A stretch of 64,000 nucleotides of DNA from Mycolicibacterium nivoides (GTDB lineage: Bacteria; Actinomycetota; Actinomycetes; Mycobacteriales; Mycobacteriaceae). Numbering within the stretch: position 1 is the stretch's first letter; every line of letters begins with the position of its first letter. The DNA is taken from assembly GCF_003855255.1 (NCBI RefSeq), contig NZ_CP034072.1:1240001-1304000 (forward strand), given 5' to 3'. Below are positions 1-43,190 of this stretch, in pieces. The position numbers and the translations under genes were made by a program. The notes under the pieces are model-generated. The model was not told the DNA's origin. It made no database searches and worked only from the letters and a program-made list of their open reading frames with translations.

Positions 1-19666
<19,666 letters not shown>

Positions 19667-19670
<4 letters not shown>

Positions 19671-22600
19671 CTGCCGACGCCAACCGGCGATTGTTGTCGA
19701 TGGATCTCGACGACGACGATGACGTCGAGGAACTCGACGGGTGGGGTAACCGGGCAGCCTTGAATGAGGTGGTCCCGGTGTCGGCGTCGATCCCGGTGCT
19801 GTTCGACGCGCAGGTGGCTCGTCATCCGGACGCGGTGGCAGTCAGCCTCGGTGCCAGTTCGTTGACCTATCGGGAACTCGACGCGGCTGCGAATCGGTTG
19901 GCGCACTTGCTGGTCGAGTGGGGAGCAGGTCCCGGGCTGCGGGTGGCGTTGTTGTTCCCACGTTCGGTCGAGGCTGTGGTGGCGATCATGGGGGTGCTGA
20001 AGACCGGTGCGGCGTATGTGCCGATCGATCCTTCGGTGCCCGATGCGCGCTTGGATTTCGTCCTAACCGACTCGGCGCCGATCGCTGTGGTCACCACCGC
20101 TGATCTGGTGGGTCGGTTGGATGGGCGTGGGTTGACGGTGATCGATGTCGACGACTCCGCCGCGGTCGGCCGGCCGAGCACCCCACCGCTGGTCGAACCA
20201 ACTGGCGATGATGTTGCGTACCTGATCTACACGTCGGGGACGACGGGTGTGCCCAAGGGTGTGGCGATTCCGCATCGGAATGTGGCGCGGTTGTTGGATG
20301 CGATCGATCGTGATGTGGATTTGTCGGCGGGTCAGGTGTGGACGCAGTTCCACTCGTATGCGTTCGATTTCTCGGTGTGGGAGATTTTCGGTGCGCTGCT
20401 GCACGGTGGCCGGTTGGTGGTGGTGCCCGAATCGGTGACGCGCTCGGCCGATGAGTTCCACGCGTTGTTGGTCGCCGAACGGGTCAGTGTGCTCAGTCAA
20501 ACACCGGCAGCGTTCTATGCGTTGGCCGCGGTCGACGCGGCCCGGCCTGACCACCAGCTCTCACTCGAACTCGTGGTGTTCGGCGGGGAGGCGCTGGAAC
20601 CGCAGCGGCTTTCACCATGGTTGGACCGGCACGCGGTGATGCCGCGGTTGATCAATATGTACGGGATTACCGAGACGACGGTGCATGCCTCGTTCCGTGA
20701 GATCAGCGCCGCTGATGTGGGCAATGTGGTCAGTCCGATCGGTGTGCCGTTGGCGGATCTGGCGTTTTTCGTACTGGACGGTTGGTTGCGTCCGGTGCCC
20801 GCCGGGGTGGTTGGCGAGTTGTACGTCGCCGGTGCCGGTTTGGGCTACGGGTATGTCGGTCGGCCGGGATTGAGTGCGTCGCGATTCACAGCGTGTCCGT
20901 TCGGGTCGCCGGGGATGCGGATGTATCGCACCGGGGACCTGGTGTCGTGGCGCGCGGACGGGGAACTGCAGTATCTGGGCCGTGCCGATGAGCAGGTCAA
21001 GATCCGTGGCTATCGCATCGAATTGGGTGAGATCCAGTCTGCGCTGATGGCGTTGGACGGTGTCGAGCAGGCGGTGGTGATCGCCCGTGAGGACCGGCCC
21101 GGGGACAAGCGGCTGGTCGGTTATGTCACCGGGACCGCCGATCCTGCTGTGTTGCGTGCGGTGCTGGGGGAGACGCTGCCGCCGTATATGGTGCCCGCGG
21201 CGGTGGTGGCTATCGATGCGTTGCCGTTGACGGTCAACGGCAAGCTCGACAAAAAGGCCTTGCCTGCACCGGAATACCAGCATGTCGATGGCTACCGGGC
21301 TCCGAGCACGCCCACCGAGGAGATCCTGGCCGGCATCTACGCCCAGATCCTCGGCCTGGACCGCGTCGGCGTCGACGAATCATTCTTCGATCTCGGCGGT
21401 GATTCCTTGCAGGCCATGCGCCTGGTCGCCGCCCTCAATCGGACTCTGGGCACCGGCCTCGAAGAGCGCGTCCTGTTCGACGCCCCAACGGTCGCCCAGC
21501 TGATGCTCTGCATCGGTGACGACGAAGGCCGGCATCAACCGTTGCTGGCCGCGGAACGGCCCGCGGTGATGCCGCTGTCGTTTGCGCAGAGCAGGTTGTG
21601 GTTCATCGACCAATTGAACGGGCCTTCACCGGTTTACAACCTGGCGGCGGGTTTGCGCTTGGACGGACCACTTGATGTCGAGGCCCTCGGCGCGGCGTTC
21701 GGGGACCTCTTGGATCGACACGAGAGCCTGCGCACGTTGTTCCCGACGGTTGACGGGACGCCTCAGCAACTGATTGTTCCCGCTGAGCTGACCGAATTCG
21801 GCTGGGAGGTGGTTGATGCCGTCGGATGGCCGGCCGGCAGGTTGGAGCAGGCCGTCGAGGACGCGGCGCGTCACAGCTTCGACCTCGCTGCCGAGATCCC
21901 GCTGCGGGCGAAGGTTTTCCGGGTAGCCGAGGATGAGCATGTGCTGGTGGCGGTGGTGCATCACATCGCCGCCGACGGTTGGTCGATCACTCCGCTGGTG
22001 GCCGATCTGGGGGTGGCCTATGCGAGCCGGCGTGAAGGGCAGGCGCCGGGCTGGGAGCCGTTGGCGGTCCAGTACGCGGACTACACGTTGTGGCAGCGCG
22101 CCCAGCTGGGTGATCTGGAGGAGAGCGACAGCCGCATCTCCCAGCAGCTGAGGTTCTGGGCGGACGCACTCGGCGGGATGCCCGAACGCCTGGCATTGCC
22201 GACCGATCGTCCCTATCCCTTGGTGGCTGACCAGAATGGCGACCGAGTCGATGTGGAATGGCCCGCCGATCTGCAGCAACAGGTGGCTCGCCTGGCTCGC
22301 GAACACAACGCGACCAAATTCATGGTGATTCAAGCGGCGCTGCTGACTCTGCTGTCGAAGCTCAGCTCGAGTTCGGATGTGGCGGTGGGCTTCCCGATCG
22401 CCGGGCGCCGTGACCCTGCCCTCGACGAGCTGATCGGGTTCTTCGTCAACACGTTGGTGCTCCGGGTCGATCTGGCCGGAGACCCGAGTGTTGCCGAGGT
22501 GCTGGCTCAAGTTCGGGAACGCAGTCTCGGTGCGTTCGAGCACCAGGACGTGCCGTTCGAGGTGCTTGTCGAGCGGCTCAACCCGACCCGGTCGCTGACC

Positions 22601-25600
22601 CACCACCCACTGGTGCAGGTGATGTTGGCCTGGCAGAACGTTCCCGGTCAGACGGGCGAAGACGGCGGCGGGGTGTCGCTGGGGGATCTGCAGGTCACTC
22701 AGTTGCCGCTGGACACCCACACCGCGCGGATGGACCTGTCGTGGTCGTTGGCCGAACGCTGGACGGAAACCGGTGAGGCCGCGGGAATTTCCGGCACTGT
22801 CGAGTTCCGTACCGATGTGTTCGACGCCGGCAGCATCGAAGCCCTCGTCGATCGGTTGCGGCGGGTCCTCGAGGCGATGGCCGCCGATTCCACCCTGCGA
22901 CTGTCGGCGATCGATGTGCTCGACGCCGATGAGCGGGCACGTCTGGACACGGTGGGCAATCTGGCGACGCTGACCCGTCCGACCCCCGGTCCGGTGTCGA
23001 TTTCGGTTCTGTTCGATGCTCAGGTGATCCGTGATCCTGGTGCGGTGGCCGTCAGTTTCGACGGAAGCCACATCACGTACGGGGATCTCGATCGGGCCGC
23101 GAATCGGTTGGCGCACCTGCTCGTCGAGCAGGGTGTTGGTCCGGGCCAGCGGGTGGCGTTGCTGTTCTCGCGGTCGGTCGAGGCGATCGTCGCGATCTTC
23201 GCGGTGCTCAAAACCGGGGCGGCATACGTGCCGATCGATCCCGCGGTGCCCGATTCCCGAATGGAGTTCATCCTCAGCGATTCCACGCCGCTGGCGGCGA
23301 TCACCACCACGGATCTGGCCGACCGGCTGGCCGGGCGCGCATTGAGGGTGATCGCCGTCGACGATGCCGCGGTGGCCGGCCAACCCGATACAGCCCTGCC
23401 GGGGCCGGGTCCGGACGACATCGCGTATCTGATCTACACCTCGGGCACCACGGGTGTGCCGAAAGGTGTGGCGATCCCGCACCACAACGTGACTCGATTG
23501 CTGCAGGCCCTGGACGCCGATCTGGAGTTGTCGGCGGATCAAGTGTGGACGCAGAGTCATTCGCTGGCCTTCGATTTCTCGGTGTGGGAGATTTTCGGCG
23601 CACTGCTGCACGGTGGCCGGCTGGTGGTGGTGTCCGATTCGGTGGCACGGTCGCCCGAAGAGTTCCACGCCTTGCTGGTCGCCGAGCGGGTCAGTGTGTT
23701 GAGTCAGACGCCGTCGGCGTTCTATGCGCTGCAAGCCGCGGACGAGCTCTCAGCGGGGGCCGGTTCTGAGCTCGAGCTTGAGTTGGTCGTATTCGGCGGT
23801 GAAGCACTGGACCCGACTCGGCTGGCGGAGTGGTTCCAGGACCATCCGGTGTTGCCGCGGTTGATCAACATGTACGGGATCACCGAGACCACGGTGCACG
23901 CATCGTTCCGGGAGATCACCGAGCTCGATGCGGAGGTCGCGGTCAGTCCGATCGGTGTGCCGCTGAAGCACCTGGCCTTTGTCGTGCTCGATCGCTGGTT
24001 GCGTCCCGTGCCGGTCGGGGTGGTGGGCGAGTTGTATGTGGCCGGTGCGGGTTTGGGCTACGGGTATGTGGGTCGGCCGGGATTGAGTGCGTCGCGATTC
24101 ACAGCGTGTCCGTTCGGGTCGCCGGGGATGCGGATGTATCGCACCGGGGACCTGGTGTCGTGGCGCGCGGACGGGGAACTGCAGTATCTGGGCCGTGCCG
24201 ATGAGCAGGTCAAGATCCGTGGCTATCGCATCGAATTGGGTGAGATCCAGTCTGCGCTGATGGCGTTGGACGGTGTCGAGCAGGCGGTGGTGATCGCCCG
24301 TGAGGACCGGCCCGGGGACAAGCGGCTGGTCGGTTATGTCACCGGGACCGCCGATCCTGCTGTGTTGCGTGCCGCGCTGGCGGAGAAGCTGCCGCCCTAC
24401 ATGGTCCCGACCGCTGTGGTGGAGATCGAGGCCCTGCCGTTGACGGTCAACGGAAAACTCGATATTCGAGCGTTGCCGGCCCCGGAATACCAGGACATCG
24501 ATCGTTATCGTGCTCCGGCCACTGGTGTCGAGGAGCTTCTGGCCGGCATCTACGCCCAAGTCCTCGGCCTGGACCGCGTCGGCGTCGACGAATCATTCTT
24601 CGACCTTGGTGGCGACAGCATTTCGGCCATTCAGGTGATCTGGCGCGCCCATAGTGCCGGTCTGACCGGGCGCCCACGCGACATCTTCGTCCAGCAGACG
24701 GTGGCCCGGTTGGCGCGGGTGGTCAGTATGGCCAACAACGCCGGCGGCGTGATCGACGAGGGTCTCGGTCCGGTGGTCGCGACCCCGATCATGCGGTGGC
24801 TGAAGGGCCTGGAGCGTGCCGACGGCCCGATCGACGAGTTCAATCAGACGGTGGTGCTGCAGGCACCCGCCGGTGCATCCGAGGACGACGTCGTAATCCT
24901 GTTGCAGGCCTTGCTGGCACGGCATGGCATGCTCCGATTGCGTGCCGAGGACGACGGCACCGGCGCATGGTCGCTGACAGTGCCCGACCCGGACGCGGTG
25001 GATGCGCGCGAGCATCTGCTCACCGTCGACCTGTTGACGGAAGACGCGCTGGCAGTGGCACGGTCGCGGTTGAATCCCGCCGCCGGGGTGATGTTGAGCG
25101 CGTTGTGGAGTTCTGCCACGGGGCAACTGGCGTTGGTCGCCCACCATATGGCTGTCGACGGAGTGTCGTGGCGAATTGTGCTGGAGGACCTCAACATCGC
25201 CTGGACCCAGCATCGCGGCGAGCAGCCGGTGCTGCTGCCGCCGACCGGGTCGTCGTTCAAACGATGGGCGGAGCTGCTGGCTGAGTACGCGCACCACCCC
25301 GACGTGGTCGGCCGGGCGGAGGCGTGGCGGCAGGTGGCCTCGATCCCACCTGCATTGCCGGCGCCGCGGCCCGCCGAGGATACGTTCGCCACCGCCGGAT
25401 ACCTGTCGGAGTTCCTGGATGCCGAGACCACCCACATGCTGCTGGGTGATGTGCCTGCGGCATTTCACGCCGGGGTGCAAGAGATCCTGTTGATCGCGTT
25501 CGCACTGGCGTGGGCCCAGTATCTGGGGACGGGCGGCGCTCCGATCGCCATCGATGTGGAGGGCCACGGGCGCCAGGAGGACTTGGCAAATCTGGGCGCA

Positions 25601-27823
25601 CCCGACGACCCAGAGGTCGACCTATCGCGCACGGTGGGGTGGTTCACCGCCAAGTACCCGGTATCGCTGGCAGTCGGTGGGCTGCGCTGGACGCAGGTGG
25701 TGGCAGGCGATGCGGCGCTCGGCGCGGTCATCAAGGACGCCAAAGAGCAGCTTCGAACCCTGCCCGACGGTCTGACCTACGGACTGCTGCGCTACCTCAA
25801 CCCCGACGTGGATCTGGCCGGATCCGATCCGGTGATCGGGTTCAACTATCTCGGGCGGCTGGGTTCCCCGGCGGCGTACGCGTCCGGTGACGTGTGGCGT
25901 TTCAGTCAGGACGGCCTGTCGATGACCGGTGCGGCCGGCGCGATGCCGATTGCGCTGGCGCACTCCGTGGAGCTCAATGCGGTCACCATCGACACCGACA
26001 GCGGCCCGCACCTGAATGCCACCTGGACGTGGGCGCCCACCGCACTGGATCGTACGGCTGTCACCCGGATCAGCCGGTTGTGGTTCGACGCCCTGGCGGG
26101 GATCTGTGCCCATGTCAGGCGGGGCGGGGGCGGATTGACGCCGTCGGACATCGCGCCGGCAAGGCTGAGCCAGCACCAGATCGATGCGCTGCACAGCGAA
26201 TTCCCCATCGCCGACGTGCTTCTCCTGACGCCGTTGCAGCAGGGACTGCTCTACCACGCCGGCATCGCGAATTCCTCTGGCGACGACGTCTATGCGGTGC
26301 AGCTGGACCTGGCATTGAGCGGTCCGCTCGACGTACACCGGCTGCGCGATGCCGTGCAGACCGTGGTGAGTCGGCATCCGCATCTGGCTGCCCGCTTCTG
26401 CCCGCAGTTCGAGCAACCCGTGCAGGTGATCCCCGCTGATCCGGTGACGCCGTGGCGGTATATCGAGTTGGACGCCAACGGCATTGGCGTCGACCAGCAG
26501 ATCGAGCAGATCTGCGCCGCCGAACGTGGCGCAGTGTGCGACCTCGAGAACCAACCTGCCTTCCGGACCGCCCTCATCCGCACTGCCGAAGACCGGCACC
26601 GGTTCGTGCTGACCAACCATCACATCGTGCTCGACGGATGGTCGATGCCGATCCTGATGCAGGAGATCTTCGCCGGCTACCAGGGGCTGCGGCTGCCCGC
26701 GGCCTCCCCGTACCGCAGCTTCGTGACGTGGCTGTCCGAACGTGATCACCATGCCGCCCATGCGGTGTGGCGTGAGGTGCTGGCCGGTTTCGACACTCCG
26801 ATTCTCGTGGGACCGCCGCAGAAGCTGCGGTTCGGGGAACGTTGTGTCGGCTCGTACCGGGTGCCCGCCAAGACCACGCGGGCCCTTACGAAACTCGCGC
26901 GCGCGCATCACACCACCGTGAACGTCGTCTTGCAGGGGGCTTGGGCTCTCCTGCTCAGCTCGCTGACCGGCCACCACGACGTCGCCTTCGGAACCGTCGT
27001 CTCGGGTAGGCCACCGGAGGTGGACGGTGCGGATTCGATGGTCGGCCTGCTGATCAACACGGTTCCGGTGCGGGCTACCTTCACCCCGGAAACCACCACG
27101 GCCGATCTGCTGGACCAGCTGCAAAGTGCCCACAACGACACACTCGATCATCAGCACGTGGCGCTCAGCGACATTCACCGCATGACCGGCCAGGACAGCC
27201 TCTTCGACACCGTCTTCGTGTACGAGAACTATCCGACCGATACCGGAACACCACCGGGCGGCGAGGGTTTGGCCGTCACCGGTTTCAGCAGCCGCGACTT
27301 CTACCACTACCCGATCGCGGTGCAAGCCGGGCCCGGTCGCGAGTTGGAGCTGCGGGTCCAATACGACACCGAGGTATTCGACGGCGAAACCATAGAAGCG
27401 CTGATGGAGCGGTTCAAGAAGGTGTTGGTGGGGATGACGGCCCATCCGGGTCGCCGCGTGTCATCCCTGGATCTCCTGTCGAAGACCGCGTGCCTGGACG
27501 GGTGGGGGCGCAAGGCGGTATCGGCTCGGCCGGACACCGGCGTGGTGCCCGCATCCGAAGTCGGTGAGGCCGACGGCCCCTATCGCCCCCCGGCCACCTT
27601 GGTCGAGCAGATCCTCGCCAGCATCTACGCCGAGGTGCTGGGCGTCGACCGGGTGGACGTGGAGGAGTCATTCTTCGATGCGGGCGGCGATTCGATTTCG
27701 GCGATGCGTGCCATCGCCGCGATCAACGGAGCCCTCGACGTCGAACTCACGATGCTCGCGCTGTTCGACGCGCCGTCCGTACGCAGCTTGGCTCAGCAGT
27801 TGGCAAACGCACCGGTTCAATGA
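19667..27823 (+). CDS. Non-ribosomal peptide synthetase, subunit 2
   Basis: A 2718-residue NRPS that begins with an adenylation domain. Order: A (40-530), T (545-615), C (625-1085), A (1110-1605), T (1620-1685), E (1695-2165), C (2175-2600), T (2640-2710). GTG at 19667 is the start: it overlaps the TGA of subunit 1 as GTGA and has a GGAGAGG Shine-Dalgarno ten bases upstream. The N-terminal residues TADANRRLL match the linker that joins C to A inside the other modules, so the gene boundary falls within a module. The acidic run [11 protein letters not shown] lies in this linker. The last unit is C-T: the linker after the C domain passes straight into a carrier domain ([13 protein letters not shown]) with no A domain. 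No thioesterase, reductase or terminal condensation-release domain follows; the protein stops 25-30 residues after the carrier. Both A domains are of the [11 protein letters not shown] type, unlike the five in subunit 1. Confidence 0.97.
20858..21159 (+). repeat. 302-bp perfect repeat, copy 1 (adenylation domain 6)
   Basis: Base-identical to 24071-24372, checked base by base. It covers the A-domain C-terminal subdomain, including the YRTGDLV and [11 protein letters not shown] motifs. One mismatch at 20857 separates it from further matching sequence on the left. Identity without any silent change, inside genes where other modules differ at most third positions, points to recent gene conversion or duplication. 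Confidence 0.95.
21521..26170 (+). other. NRPS module 7: C-A-T-E
   Basis: The LCL-type condensation domain has HHIAADGW near 21960. The A domain has the same pocket code as module 6 (D F W S V G M V H), so a second threonine-like residue is expected, here turned to the D form by the E domain ([11 protein letters not shown] near 25140). A 302-bp block of this A domain is base-identical to module 6. Confidence 0.83.
24071..24372 (+). repeat. 302-bp perfect repeat, copy 2 (adenylation domain 7)
   Basis: Second copy of the block at 20858-21159, offset 3213 bp, in the same subdomain of the next A domain. The sequences part immediately on the right (position 24373 C against 21160 G). Confidence 0.95.
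26171..27823 (+). other. NRPS module 8: terminal C-T without A domain
   Basis: A condensation domain of the post-epimerase type ([11 protein letters not shown] near 26610) is followed by about 40 linker residues and a carrier domain. The linker begins like a normal C-A linker (SLDLLS, LDGWG) and resumes like a normal A-T linker ([15 protein letters not shown]), as if an A domain had been cut out. There is no release domain. Confidence 0.85.
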
Positions 27824-27833
27824 ACGACTGCCG

Positions 27834-27856
27834 CGCCGGCCCCGTGCGGGCCGGCG
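27834..27856. terminator. Hairpin between convergent genes
   Basis: CGCCGGCCC, a 5-base loop, then GGGCCGGCG: a perfect 9-bp GC stem between the NRPS stop and the stop of the converging methyltransferase-like gene. There is no U tract, which is common for mycobacterial terminators. It could serve both strands. Confidence 0.6.
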
Positions 27857-27862
27857 GAGCAG

Positions 27863-28537
27863 TCACCACATATAGGGCACCAGGCGATAACGCGCCTTCT
27901 GCGCGTACTCGCGGTAGCCGTCCAACTCTTCGACGAGCAGCTTTTCCTCATCCCGAATGCGGACGACGAGAACGATGAGGCCCGGTATGACGGGCAGGAG
28001 CCCCCAGTAGGAGCCGAGCGCGAGGGGGAAGCCGATGATCGTCAGCACGTTGCCGGTGTACATGGGGTGACGAACCAGCCCATAGAGGCCGGTGGAGGCG
28101 AGCTTCTGGCCTGACTCCACCTGCACGGTGGAGGCCGCGAAGCTGTTCTGGATGACCACCAGGCTCGTGACACCCAGTCCGAGGGCCACCAGAACGTCAC
28201 CGGCAACGCAGATCGCCGCCGGTACCGACGACCAGTCGAAGCGGTGGTCCAGTGCGCTGACCACCACCATCGCCGCCAGCGACAGGTACCAGCCGGCGAT
28301 GAGGACCTTCTGCACCGTTCGGGTTTCCGCCGCCGGTCCGGCGTGCTTGCGCCGTTGGTGTGCCTCGGGGTTTGTCCGTTGCAAGAAGATACTGGGAATC
28401 CACGTCGACAGGGCGAACACGACGAGAAAAGCCCAGGCTTGCCAGAAGTCGAGTGTGCCGGCGAGTGAGAACAGCACCAAGCCGAACACGATGAGTTCAA
28501 CAAGCCCGAATCCGACTACTCTCGCAACGGCTTTCAC
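27863..28537 (-). CDS. Isoprenylcysteine carboxyl methyltransferase (ICMT) family membrane protein
   Basis: A membrane protein of about 224 residues with four to five hydrophobic segments. The C-terminal part has the family signature: LYGLVRHPMYTGN, then a hydrophobic hairpin, then RIRDEEKLL and a Y-rich end. ICMT/PEMT-type enzymes use S-adenosylmethionine to methylate membrane-associated substrates; the substrate here is unknown. I chose GTG 28537 because AGGAGG lies directly upstream, although only three bases away. A TTG at 28582 would add 15 residues (RPPAVCAATDDRR region) but has no ribosome site. The gene converges on the NRPS and has its own promoter region in 28583-28807, so it is not in the NRPS operon. 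A tailoring role is possible but unsupported. Confidence 0.75.
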   Translation of the reverse strand: MKAVARVVGFGLVELIVFGLVLFSLAGTLDFWQAWAFLVVFALSTWIPSIFLQRTNPEAHQRRKHAGPAAETRTVQKVLIAGWYLSLAAMVVVSALDHRFDWSSVPAAICVAGDVLVALGLGVTSLVVIQNSFAASTVQVESGQKLASTGLYGLVRHPMYTGNVLTIIGFPLALGSYWGLLPVIPGLIVLVVRIRDEEKLLVEELDGYREYAQKARYRLVPYMW

Positions 28538-42371: not shown

Positions 42372-43190
42372 ATGACCGAGGTTGACGCCCATTTTGTGCA
42401 GTCCGAGCAGGACAGGTTCCAGCCGACCCGCTTTGCGCAGAGCCACTGGGGTGAGGATCACCTCAACGGCCCGGCGTTGGTCGGTCTGGCCGCGCGGGCG
42501 CTGGAGGCGGCCTTCGGACTGCCCGAATTTCTGCCCGCCCGGCTGACGGTCGACCTGTTCAAGGCAGCGCGCGGGGTGCCGACCACGACGAAGGTGGCGT
42601 TGGTCCGGGACGGTCGGCGGGTCCGCAACTCCGAATGCGAACTGGTGCAGGACGGCGTGACCGTGGCACGTGCGACGTTGGTGCAGTACCGGCTGAGTGC
42701 ACCCCCGCGCGGTGAGGAGTGGACGTCGCCGACCCACTTCGAACCGCCGACCGCGCTCGATGGGGACCGGACCACCTATATGGGCAGTGACGCGGGCGGT
42801 TGGAGTCGCGCCATCGCCGAGCATCAGAACGCGTCGCGCAAGCGCTTCATGAATCGGACCATCACCGTGGTGCAGGGACAACCCAACTCACCCTTCGTGC
42901 GGGCCGCGATGGCCGCAGAGGGCACAAGCCTGGTGACCAACCTGGGCACCGCTGGTGTCGGTTACATCAACGGTGACCTGACCGTCGCCCTTTCGCGGTT
43001 GCCCGGCGACGAGTGGATCGGCGTTCAGGCCGATTCGCACTGGGCTGCCGATGGCGTCGCCGTGGGCGCGTCGACGTTGTTCGACAGCGCCGGGGCGTTC
43101 GGCACCGGCCTCGTCACGGCGATCAGCAATCCGGCGGCGCAGATCGATTTCTCCCACGACCCGTTTCCGGATCGCACCGCGCCGAGATGA
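42372..43190 (+). CDS. Acyl-CoA thioesterase family protein (double hot-dog fold)
   Basis: 272 residues with the pattern of TesB-like or acyl-CoA thioesterase-family proteins: FAQSHWGEDHLNGPALVGLAARAL near the N-terminus, LPARLTVDLFKAARG as the first hot-dog strand set, and DEWIGVQADSHWAADGVAVG then SAGAFGTGL in the second half. It would cleave acyl-CoA esters; chain length is unknown. Probably co-transcribed with the upstream metallo-hydrolase. Confidence 0.78.
   Translation: MTEVDAHFVQSEQDRFQPTRFAQSHWGEDHLNGPALVGLAARALEAAFGLPEFLPARLTVDLFKAARGVPTTTKVALVRDGRRVRNSECELVQDGVTVARATLVQYRLSAPPRGEEWTSPTHFEPPTALDGDRTTYMGSDAGGWSRAIAEHQNASRKRFMNRTITVVQGQPNSPFVRAAMAAEGTSLVTNLGTAGVGYINGDLTVALSRLPGDEWIGVQADSHWAADGVAVGASTLFDSAGAFGTGLVTAISNPAAQIDFSHDPFPDRTAPR

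Follow-up and report, generated by a model that had tools for sequence, protein, structure and literature searches.

A terminal condensation-carrier unit that probably serves for chain release in a Mycolicibacterium nivoides lipopeptide synthetase

The stretch of DNA analysed here, called the window below, comprises 64,000 nucleotides of Mycolicibacterium nivoides (contig NZ_CP034072.1, bases 1240001-1304000 of a single-contig 6.9 Mb genome) and contains two nonribosomal peptide synthetase (NRPS) genes whose assembly line ends in a condensation (C) domain, C9, and a carrier (T) domain, T9, without an adenylation (A) domain. This C9-T9 unit is probably a release didomain standing in the place of a thioesterase (TE) and not a broken elongation module, with a neighboring ICMT-like methyltransferase then making a methyl ester of the product. 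The direct observations behind this reading are the architecture of the line, its conservation, a residue signature, gene linkage, a residue count, and the fit of published masses of GL8P, a lipopeptide of M. abscessus, to a methyl ester. From these we infer that C9 and T9 carry out release, and in what manner; that the ICMT-like enzyme makes the ester is suggested by its linkage, its family and the masses.

Both NRPS genes run left to right, the start of gene 2 overlapping the stop of gene 1. Gene 1 encodes six modules, with epimerization (E) domains in modules 1, 3 and 6, and ends in C7, so that the full line reads C-A-T-E, C-A-T, C-A-T-E, C-A-T, C-A-T, C-A-T-E, C / A-T, C-A-T-E, C-T, with the slash at the gene boundary. 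The two genes thus hold eight A domains, four E domains, nine carriers and the terminal C-T unit. In gene 2, Pfam detects AMP-binding (two stretches), AMP-binding_C (two), Condensation (three, the E domain included) and PP-binding (three), and no thioesterase or reductase family; the protein stops about 50 residues past the start of the last carrier motif. Pfam and motif order thus bear out the claim of a preliminary description of this DNA that the line ends in C-T without an A domain, TE or reductase. The same description saw a normal C-A linker joined to a normal A-T linker, and inspection by eye agrees, as the C-A linker text (..LDGWGRKAV..) passes straight into a 12-residue A-T linker text at the C9-T9 junction. 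Its coordinates for the last unit are good, but the unit is module 9 of the line and not module 8, because the line starts to the left of the window.

The 550-aa C9-T9 protein was used as a query against 248 genomes of the genus; matches at E 1e-60 were present in 222, in many cases covering just a C domain. From among the matches listed, 74 full-length C-T matches (the window included) were typed, and downstream DNA was taken for 40 of these; the gene end was checked in those 40 and the window alone. In all 40 homologues, which were chosen by alignment, the gene ends in C-T with HHxxxDG and the carrier serine preserved. There are 77 distinct terminal C-T units over all fetched loci, although the patterns used for calling C, T and A domains require the motifs, so that a count of 77/77 intact units is partly built in and 40/40 is the fair one. 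Lines ending in C-T differ in length, from three A domains upward; three-module lines of this kind occur in Mycolicibacterium vanbaalenii and M. gilvum. All 16 lines studied over most of their length have an A-T-E-C-T end, G102 having one additional carrier-motif match between its E and C domains, and the last A code in these 16 is DFWSVGMVHK in 11, differs by one or two letters in three, and is another, partly unread, code in two.

Ratios of nonsynonymous to synonymous substitution rates (dN/dS) were obtained in 11 comparisons, between the window and 11 relatives. The values for C9 (0.10-0.20) resemble those for the elongation domain C8 (0.11-0.16); T9 has values of 0.05-0.62 versus 0.09-0.26 for T8, and the C9-T9 linker has values of 0.32-1.04. 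C9 and T9 are both maintained by selection, and the linker hardly at all; the A-less state of the last unit is old and conserved and no local event. The preliminary description had raised the possibility of a local deletion in a dead cluster, to be recognized by homologues with an A domain or TE at the C-T position; none of the 40 has either, and TE ends are found on other synthetases alone. Since all 40 homologues end alike and C9 is under purifying selection, a local deletion in a dead cluster is rejected.

An older loss, in which C9-T9 would be the dead remnant of a ninth module and release would be spontaneous or due to a type II thioesterase or other hydrolase encoded elsewhere, is improbable. 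The junction does look as if an A domain had been cleanly lost, several pairs show weaker constraint on T9 than on T8, and the genome contains thioesterase-family matches elsewhere as well as a 4HBT gene at 42372-43190. However, the constraint on C9 equals that on an elongation C domain, the carrier serine is kept in each of the 40 alignment-chosen loci, and the C-T unit has its own signature and is retained on lines that vary in length; a genome-wide search with PF00975 gave no match over the cut-off near the cluster, generic alpha/beta hydrolases not being searched for.

The signature emerged from a comparison between 77 terminal C domains and 15 domains labelled internal post-E, one of which (L139) is a terminal C domain missed by the carrier motif, leaving 14. 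Four sites are sharply different. Val2516 occurs in 75/77 terminal domains, and Asp2544, Tyr2546 and Gln2565 each occur in 77/77, whereas the 14 internal post-E domains have Glu, Asn/Thr and Glu in place of the last three and mostly Leu at 2516; the combination Asp-Tyr-Gln is found in 0/14. A second set was drawn from the 120 proteins best matching this C-T unit and excluded C domains identical to those of the first set, though some differ from them only slightly, with 40 of the 175 C domains that follow a T domain being used. In this set, Asp-Tyr-Gln is present in 63/63 terminal domains, 0/52 internal post-E domains and 0/40 domains after T, and in one of five post-E domains with nothing recognised behind them. 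The terminal carriers most resemble one another, with a mean best match of 84% within their class and at most 66% to other classes; descent of T9 from T-TE carriers neither gained nor lost support in this comparison.

In a FastTree phylogeny, the 77 terminal C domains share one clade (support 0.96) with nine domains labelled as internal post-E, or eight without L139; one clean clade of terminal C domains was thus not obtained, eight internal post-E domains being mixed in. Like a DCL domain, C9 follows an E domain and contains HHxxxDG. The X-domain motif HRxxxDD is not present in C9, which reads HHIVLDG, and the arrangement of fungal-type terminal condensation (CT) domains, in which the C domain is last and no carrier follows, does not apply, as C9 is followed by T9. 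C9 is a post-E kind of C domain that is set apart.

The closest described product is GL8P, which is made by the two-module MAB_4690c and the six-module MAB_4691c, from a locus extending from MAB_4689c to MAB_4705c that was reported in 2025 (PMC11978893). GL8P is N-stearoyl Thr-Ala-Phe-Ile-Tyr(OMe)-Leu-Thr-Thr, in which allo-Thr, Phe and Leu have the D form, and E domains are predicted at positions 1, 3, 6 and 8 (PMC11978893). The window line has E domains at the same four positions, the same split into six- and two-module genes, eight A domains in all, and a gene order (P450, MbtH, NRPS, NRPS) that is that of MAB_4693 to MAB_4690c. Both clusters also include glycosyltransferases, methyltransferases, an MmpL protein and MbtH (PMC11978893) and a P450 (PMC12455991). 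The window pair thus appears to be the same type of synthetase as that for GL8P. A codes identical between the window and its relatives number six of seven in G190, six of eight in G220 and six of eight in G243, the remainder being one letter apart, and the named Mycobacteroides loci L094, L098 and L101 share the last two codes with the window. The code of A8 is presumably Thr-like; this reading, like the code positions and the meanings of the codes generally, is our working assumption. The synthetases differ at the end, where PMC11978893 has a thioesterase and the window gene and its G190 homologue have a C-T unit; PF00975 is absent from both of these sequences.

Fortuitine was also considered as the product and was set aside, as the E pattern and the Thr-like codes fit GL8P instead; the word is absent from the literature searched for it. 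Methyl esters are present in fortuitine and in a lipopeptide of M. xenopi, and are given no weight here.

In GL8P there are eight residues for eight A domains, and the last C-T unit would therefore add no residue. This count bears on the reading of C9-T9 as an A-less elongation module, in which T9 would be charged by A8 or a distant A domain, C9 would add a ninth residue, and some other enzyme would release the chain. The viomycin/capreomycin and yersiniabactin synthetases contain A-less C-T units of this kind, which are charged from elsewhere, and a structure of CmnI exists; moreover, catalytic residues are retained in C9 and T9, and the 102 AMP-binding matches in the whole genome could in theory act in trans. 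In those systems, however, the amino acid on the carrier enters the product, whereas here no residue is left over for T9. In a genome-wide PF00501 search, the next AMP-binding matches on either side are about 130 kb upstream and about 270 kb downstream, and fixed sites separate terminal from elongating C domains, so that an A-less elongation module is unlikely.

Loading of the last carrier in trans, which the preliminary description proposed, is unsupported for the same reasons, since residues and A domains are equal in number for GL8P and there is no free A domain nearby. It also advised looking for an unattached A domain, a type II thioesterase or another NRPS gene in the cluster; genome-wide searches with PF00501, PF00975 and PF00668 gave none nearby, generic hydrolases not being searched for, and PF00668 has no other match near gene 2. 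Its broader idea that the product is finished in trans stands to the extent that an outside enzyme, the linked methyltransferase, is probable.

The published masses of GL8P point to what such an enzyme might do. Formulas computed from the published parts are C70H114N8O18 and C89H148N8O24 for the free acid, and C71H116N8O18 and C90H150N8O24 for the C-terminal methyl ester. The formulas reported are C71H116N8O18 and C90H150N8O24 (PMC11978893), and thus equal the methyl ester, the free acid being one CH2 short. Fragments at m/z 1158 and 1140 lack the sugar and also the two free Thr side chains (PMC11978893); calculation for such fragments gives 1157.7 and 1139.7 with the ester but 1143.7 and 1125.7 with the acid, so that the reported fragments fit the ester and not the acid. 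Because formulas and fragments both fit the ester, and the N-acyl group is assigned as C18 (PMC11978893), one CH2 appears to lie in the peptide end of GL8P unless the acyl group is misassigned.

The candidate for adding it is the ICMT-like gene, which lies 39 bp to the right of NRPS gene 2 and converges with it. A GC-rich inverted repeat is visible by eye in the 27824-27862 gap and may be a terminator shared by both genes. The 224-aa protein scores above the cut-off for Pfam PF04140 and PF04191, and the best solved relative by profile is 4a2n, the Methanosarcina ICMT (E 1.5e-13, positions 36-222 of 224). It belongs to the same family by profile; however, it scores 51.5 bits against the cut-off of 160 for the NF040696 equivalog (protein-S-isoprenylcysteine O-methyltransferase), and its likely substrate may instead be a lipopeptide acid.

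An ICMT-like gene is present downstream in 35/40 C-T loci; the fetched DNA of the other five (L065, L070, L071, L075 and L078) contains no ICMT match. The distance to a typed ICMT match is at most 2.5 kb for 64 of the 74 full-length C-T matches and at most 200 bp for 52 of them. The gene converges with the NRPS in most loci and is in line with it in others, and the wider neighborhood of C-T loci varies between species groups. In the Mycobacteroides-like loci L055 and L097-L101 it is in line and starts at most 20 bp from the NRPS stop, with an overlap in L098; this suggests that the NRPS and the ICMT-like gene are on one transcript there.

In the reverse view, restricted to the best 80 of 460 named ICMT loci, a C-T end is adjacent in 54 (L139 counted), two (L119 and L122) adjoin a reductase-ended NRPS, and 24 have no NRPS in the available flank, which is cut by a contig end in at least four. 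Eighteen ICMT loci, mostly picked for having no adjoining C-T unit, were inspected. Six adjoin the end of an NRPS that terminates in a TE (assigned by motif, with PF00975 confirmed in L214 and L230), and L218 is 1.5 kb from another; three are near reductase-type ends, namely L231 (at 2 kb) together with L223 and L224, whose records are those of L119 and L122; and eight have no clear NRPS end, including broken NRPS pieces in L222 and a TE remnant from the genome of the window in L233. One methyltransferase family thus accompanies C-T and TE ends, and occasionally a reductase, and since it is also found at TE ends, the C-T unit stands where a TE can stand. ICMT matches at E <1e-70 occur in 32/298 genomes of the order, all in one genus of 76. 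In the literature, an ICMT-family gene lies between polyketide synthase and NRPS genes in two mycobacterial clusters, with no role given in the accessible text (PMC13291983), and the accessible part of PMC5550956 contains nothing on an ICMT-family gene.

A different role for C9 would be to couple the chain to a small nucleophile from outside, in the extreme case methanol, with the ICMT-like gene serving another purpose. C domains at line ends carry out varied reactions (PMC11546977). However, the GL8P formula allows CH2 alone beyond the free acid, and the nucleophile would therefore have to be methanol itself; transfer to an amine, a sugar lipid or a further residue, the first two of which the preliminary description envisaged, is likewise not seen in GL8P. 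Since ICMT-like genes are found behind C-T ends as well as TE ends, methylation after release fits better, and coupling to an external nucleophile is very unlikely. Equally little probability attaches to a hand-over, in which T9 would pass the chain in trans to a further NRPS or transferase. In L065 (2448-2961) and L070 (1912-2362), the next NRPS gene begins 450-513 bp past the C-T stop (with the NRPS oriented +), and in L071 and L075 an uncharacterised gene on the opposite strand follows; against this, the ICMT-like gene is downstream in 35 of the 40 loci and GL8P is no longer than eight residues.

With release and subsequent methylation as the preferred reading, the following sequence of events can be proposed. 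E8 would turn the last residue to the D form, probably giving D-allo-threonine, which is known chemistry for a domain that is present. C9, as expected of post-E C domains (PMC1894796), would select the D-ended chain, take the octapeptide from T8 and free it without forming a peptide bond or adding a residue, either by direct hydrolysis or by way of T9; since T9 retains its serine, the chain may first shift to the T9 arm. The ICMT-like membrane enzyme would then methylate the carboxylate thus freed at the C terminus, so that the product would be a GL8P-like lipopeptide methyl ester. A precedent is the fungal IvoA (A-T-E-CT), in which a C-type domain after an E domain hydrolyses a D-aminoacyl thioester, without a peptide bond being made (PMC11546977). 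However, IvoA is a fungal single-module enzyme, whereas C9 is followed by a serine-intact carrier and the product would be a lipopeptide. The macrocyclising CT domains of fungi (PMC11546977, PMC8949500) are also unlike C9, which is post-E and has a T domain behind it, while GL8P is linear. A more specific version, possible but held only tentatively, is that these units are a separate mycobacterial release class, in which a D-selective C9 would move the chain by thioester exchange to a T9 that is never aminoacylated, from which it would be freed as the acid and methyl-capped.

Several observations weigh against release by C9-T9 followed by methylation. The link to GL8P is made via relatives, module count and gene order, the M. 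abscessus sequences themselves being outside the comparison; a thioesterase is drawn at the end of the GL8P synthetase (PMC11978893), and a C-terminal methyl ester is not named in the accessible text of that paper. One of the 74 C-T matches, in G093, has an in-frame stop, the constraint on T9 is weaker than that on T8 in several comparisons (dN/dS of 0.62 for T9 in one), and 10/74 C-T matches are farther than 2.5 kb from any typed ICMT match. In L119 (7239-15822) and L122 (6994-16858), about 10 bp separate the ICMT-like gene from an NRPS with a terminal match to the PF07993 reductase (L119 by scan, L122 by similar sequence), which counts against the proposed role because a reductase end should leave no free carboxylate. 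A hand-over is possible at L065 and L070, given the NRPS gene behind each. Plain hydrolysis leaves the retained serine of T9 unexplained, and generic hydrolases, not searched for, could free the chain too.

The features of the synthetase end are collected in Table 1.

Table 1. Features of the NRPS line and its flank in the window (window coordinates; residues in gene-2 numbering)
Feature	Position	Strand	Remarks
NRPS gene 1, 3' part	3..19670	+	8124 aa total, begins 4.7 kb left of window
NRPS gene 2	19667..27823	+	2718 aa, A7-T7-C8-A8-T8-E8-C9-T9
A8	22994..24466 (approximate limits)	+	code DFWSVGMVHK; final A domain of line
E8, epimerization domain of module 8	24764..26146 (approximate limits)	+	Pfam, motif order
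C9, terminal condensation domain	26213..27496	+	HHIVLDG begins at 26618
C9 signature residues	Val2516 (27212), Asp2544 (27296), Tyr2546 (27302), Gln2565 (27359)	+	gene-2 numbering
C9-T9 linker, site of would-be A domain	27497..27601	+	hardly constrained
T9, terminal carrier	27602..27814 (approximate limits)	+	GGDS serine codon 27692-27694
Gap between convergent NRPS gene 2 and methyltransferase gene	27824..27862		39 bp
ICMT/PEMT-family methyltransferase	27863..28537	-	224 aa, GTG start; relatives linked to terminal C-T units

The 31 kb to the left of the NRPS genes contain an MMPL-family transporter, with a second similar open reading frame adjoining, three glycosyltransferases, two methyltransferases (one TylF-like) and a P450 on the opposite strand; the MbtH gene directly precedes NRPS gene 1. 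Beyond the ICMT-like gene, to the right, the genes are apparently unrelated. The 4HBT gene mentioned above is acyl-CoA thioesterase-like, lies 14.5 kb past the NRPS behind unrelated genes and gives no sign of belonging to the cluster.

Five ICMT-like copies are present in the M. nivoides genome: that in the window, a pair without adjoining NRPS, one at about 26.5 kb and one near a TE-ended NRPS. The pair (L232, C1:2762122-2763478) consists of tandem paralogues, and a similar neighborhood, with a gene that is glgC-like by eye, recurs in other genomes; these may be housekeeping copies. At C1:25600-27300 (L233), a thioesterase-like remnant is beside the ICMT-like gene, with no PF00668 match near; this looks like a decayed lipopeptide locus. 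At C1:3873375-3902434 (L009 and L010), a second NRPS pair is TE-ended, with a convergent ICMT-like gene about 10 bp away; N-methylation is likely in modules 2 and 5, judging from A-T spacing, and in one later module, and the first five modules are, as we take it, reminiscent of the start of fortuitine. The reductase-ended synthetase of this genome, which resembles those for glycopeptidolipids, has no ICMT match near.

In M. abscessus, MAB_4689c adjoins MAB_4690c by locus number and is co-regulated with it: MAB_4689c, MAB_4690c and MAB_4691c fall together in one mutant (log2 -3.1, -2.9 and -3.4), and MAB_4689c is listed as uncharacterized (PMC12455991). At the level of the product alone, L5P of M. 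avium paratuberculosis is comparable, being an N-acylated peptide with a C-terminal methyl ester (PMC8103206); the module layout of its synthetase (MAP1420, pstA) was not found in the accessible parts of the literature searched.

Release from an NRPS by a condensation-family domain is already known; what is new here is the carrier that follows the domain and the linked, probably methyl-capping enzyme. No description of this C-T ending was found in the open literature searched, most subscription papers lying outside it. Release by these synthetases lacks a clear account, as the thioesterase of the GL8P paper is not in the sequences examined. GL8P influences how M. abscessus is taken up and how it grows, and patient antibodies recognize the molecule (PMC11978893), so its true end is relevant to diagnostics, and the methyltransferase gene can be named as the candidate whose removal would test the present reading. 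If that reading is correct, it would be a bacterial case of a condensation domain releasing a chain after epimerization, and under the thioester-exchange version, C-T would be a third lipopeptide ending beside TE and reductase, readable from three residues that could serve annotation software as a marker. If the C-T unit is indeed a release device, many mycobacterial surface lipopeptides would become predictable, with a length equal to the number of A domains and a methyl ester at the end.

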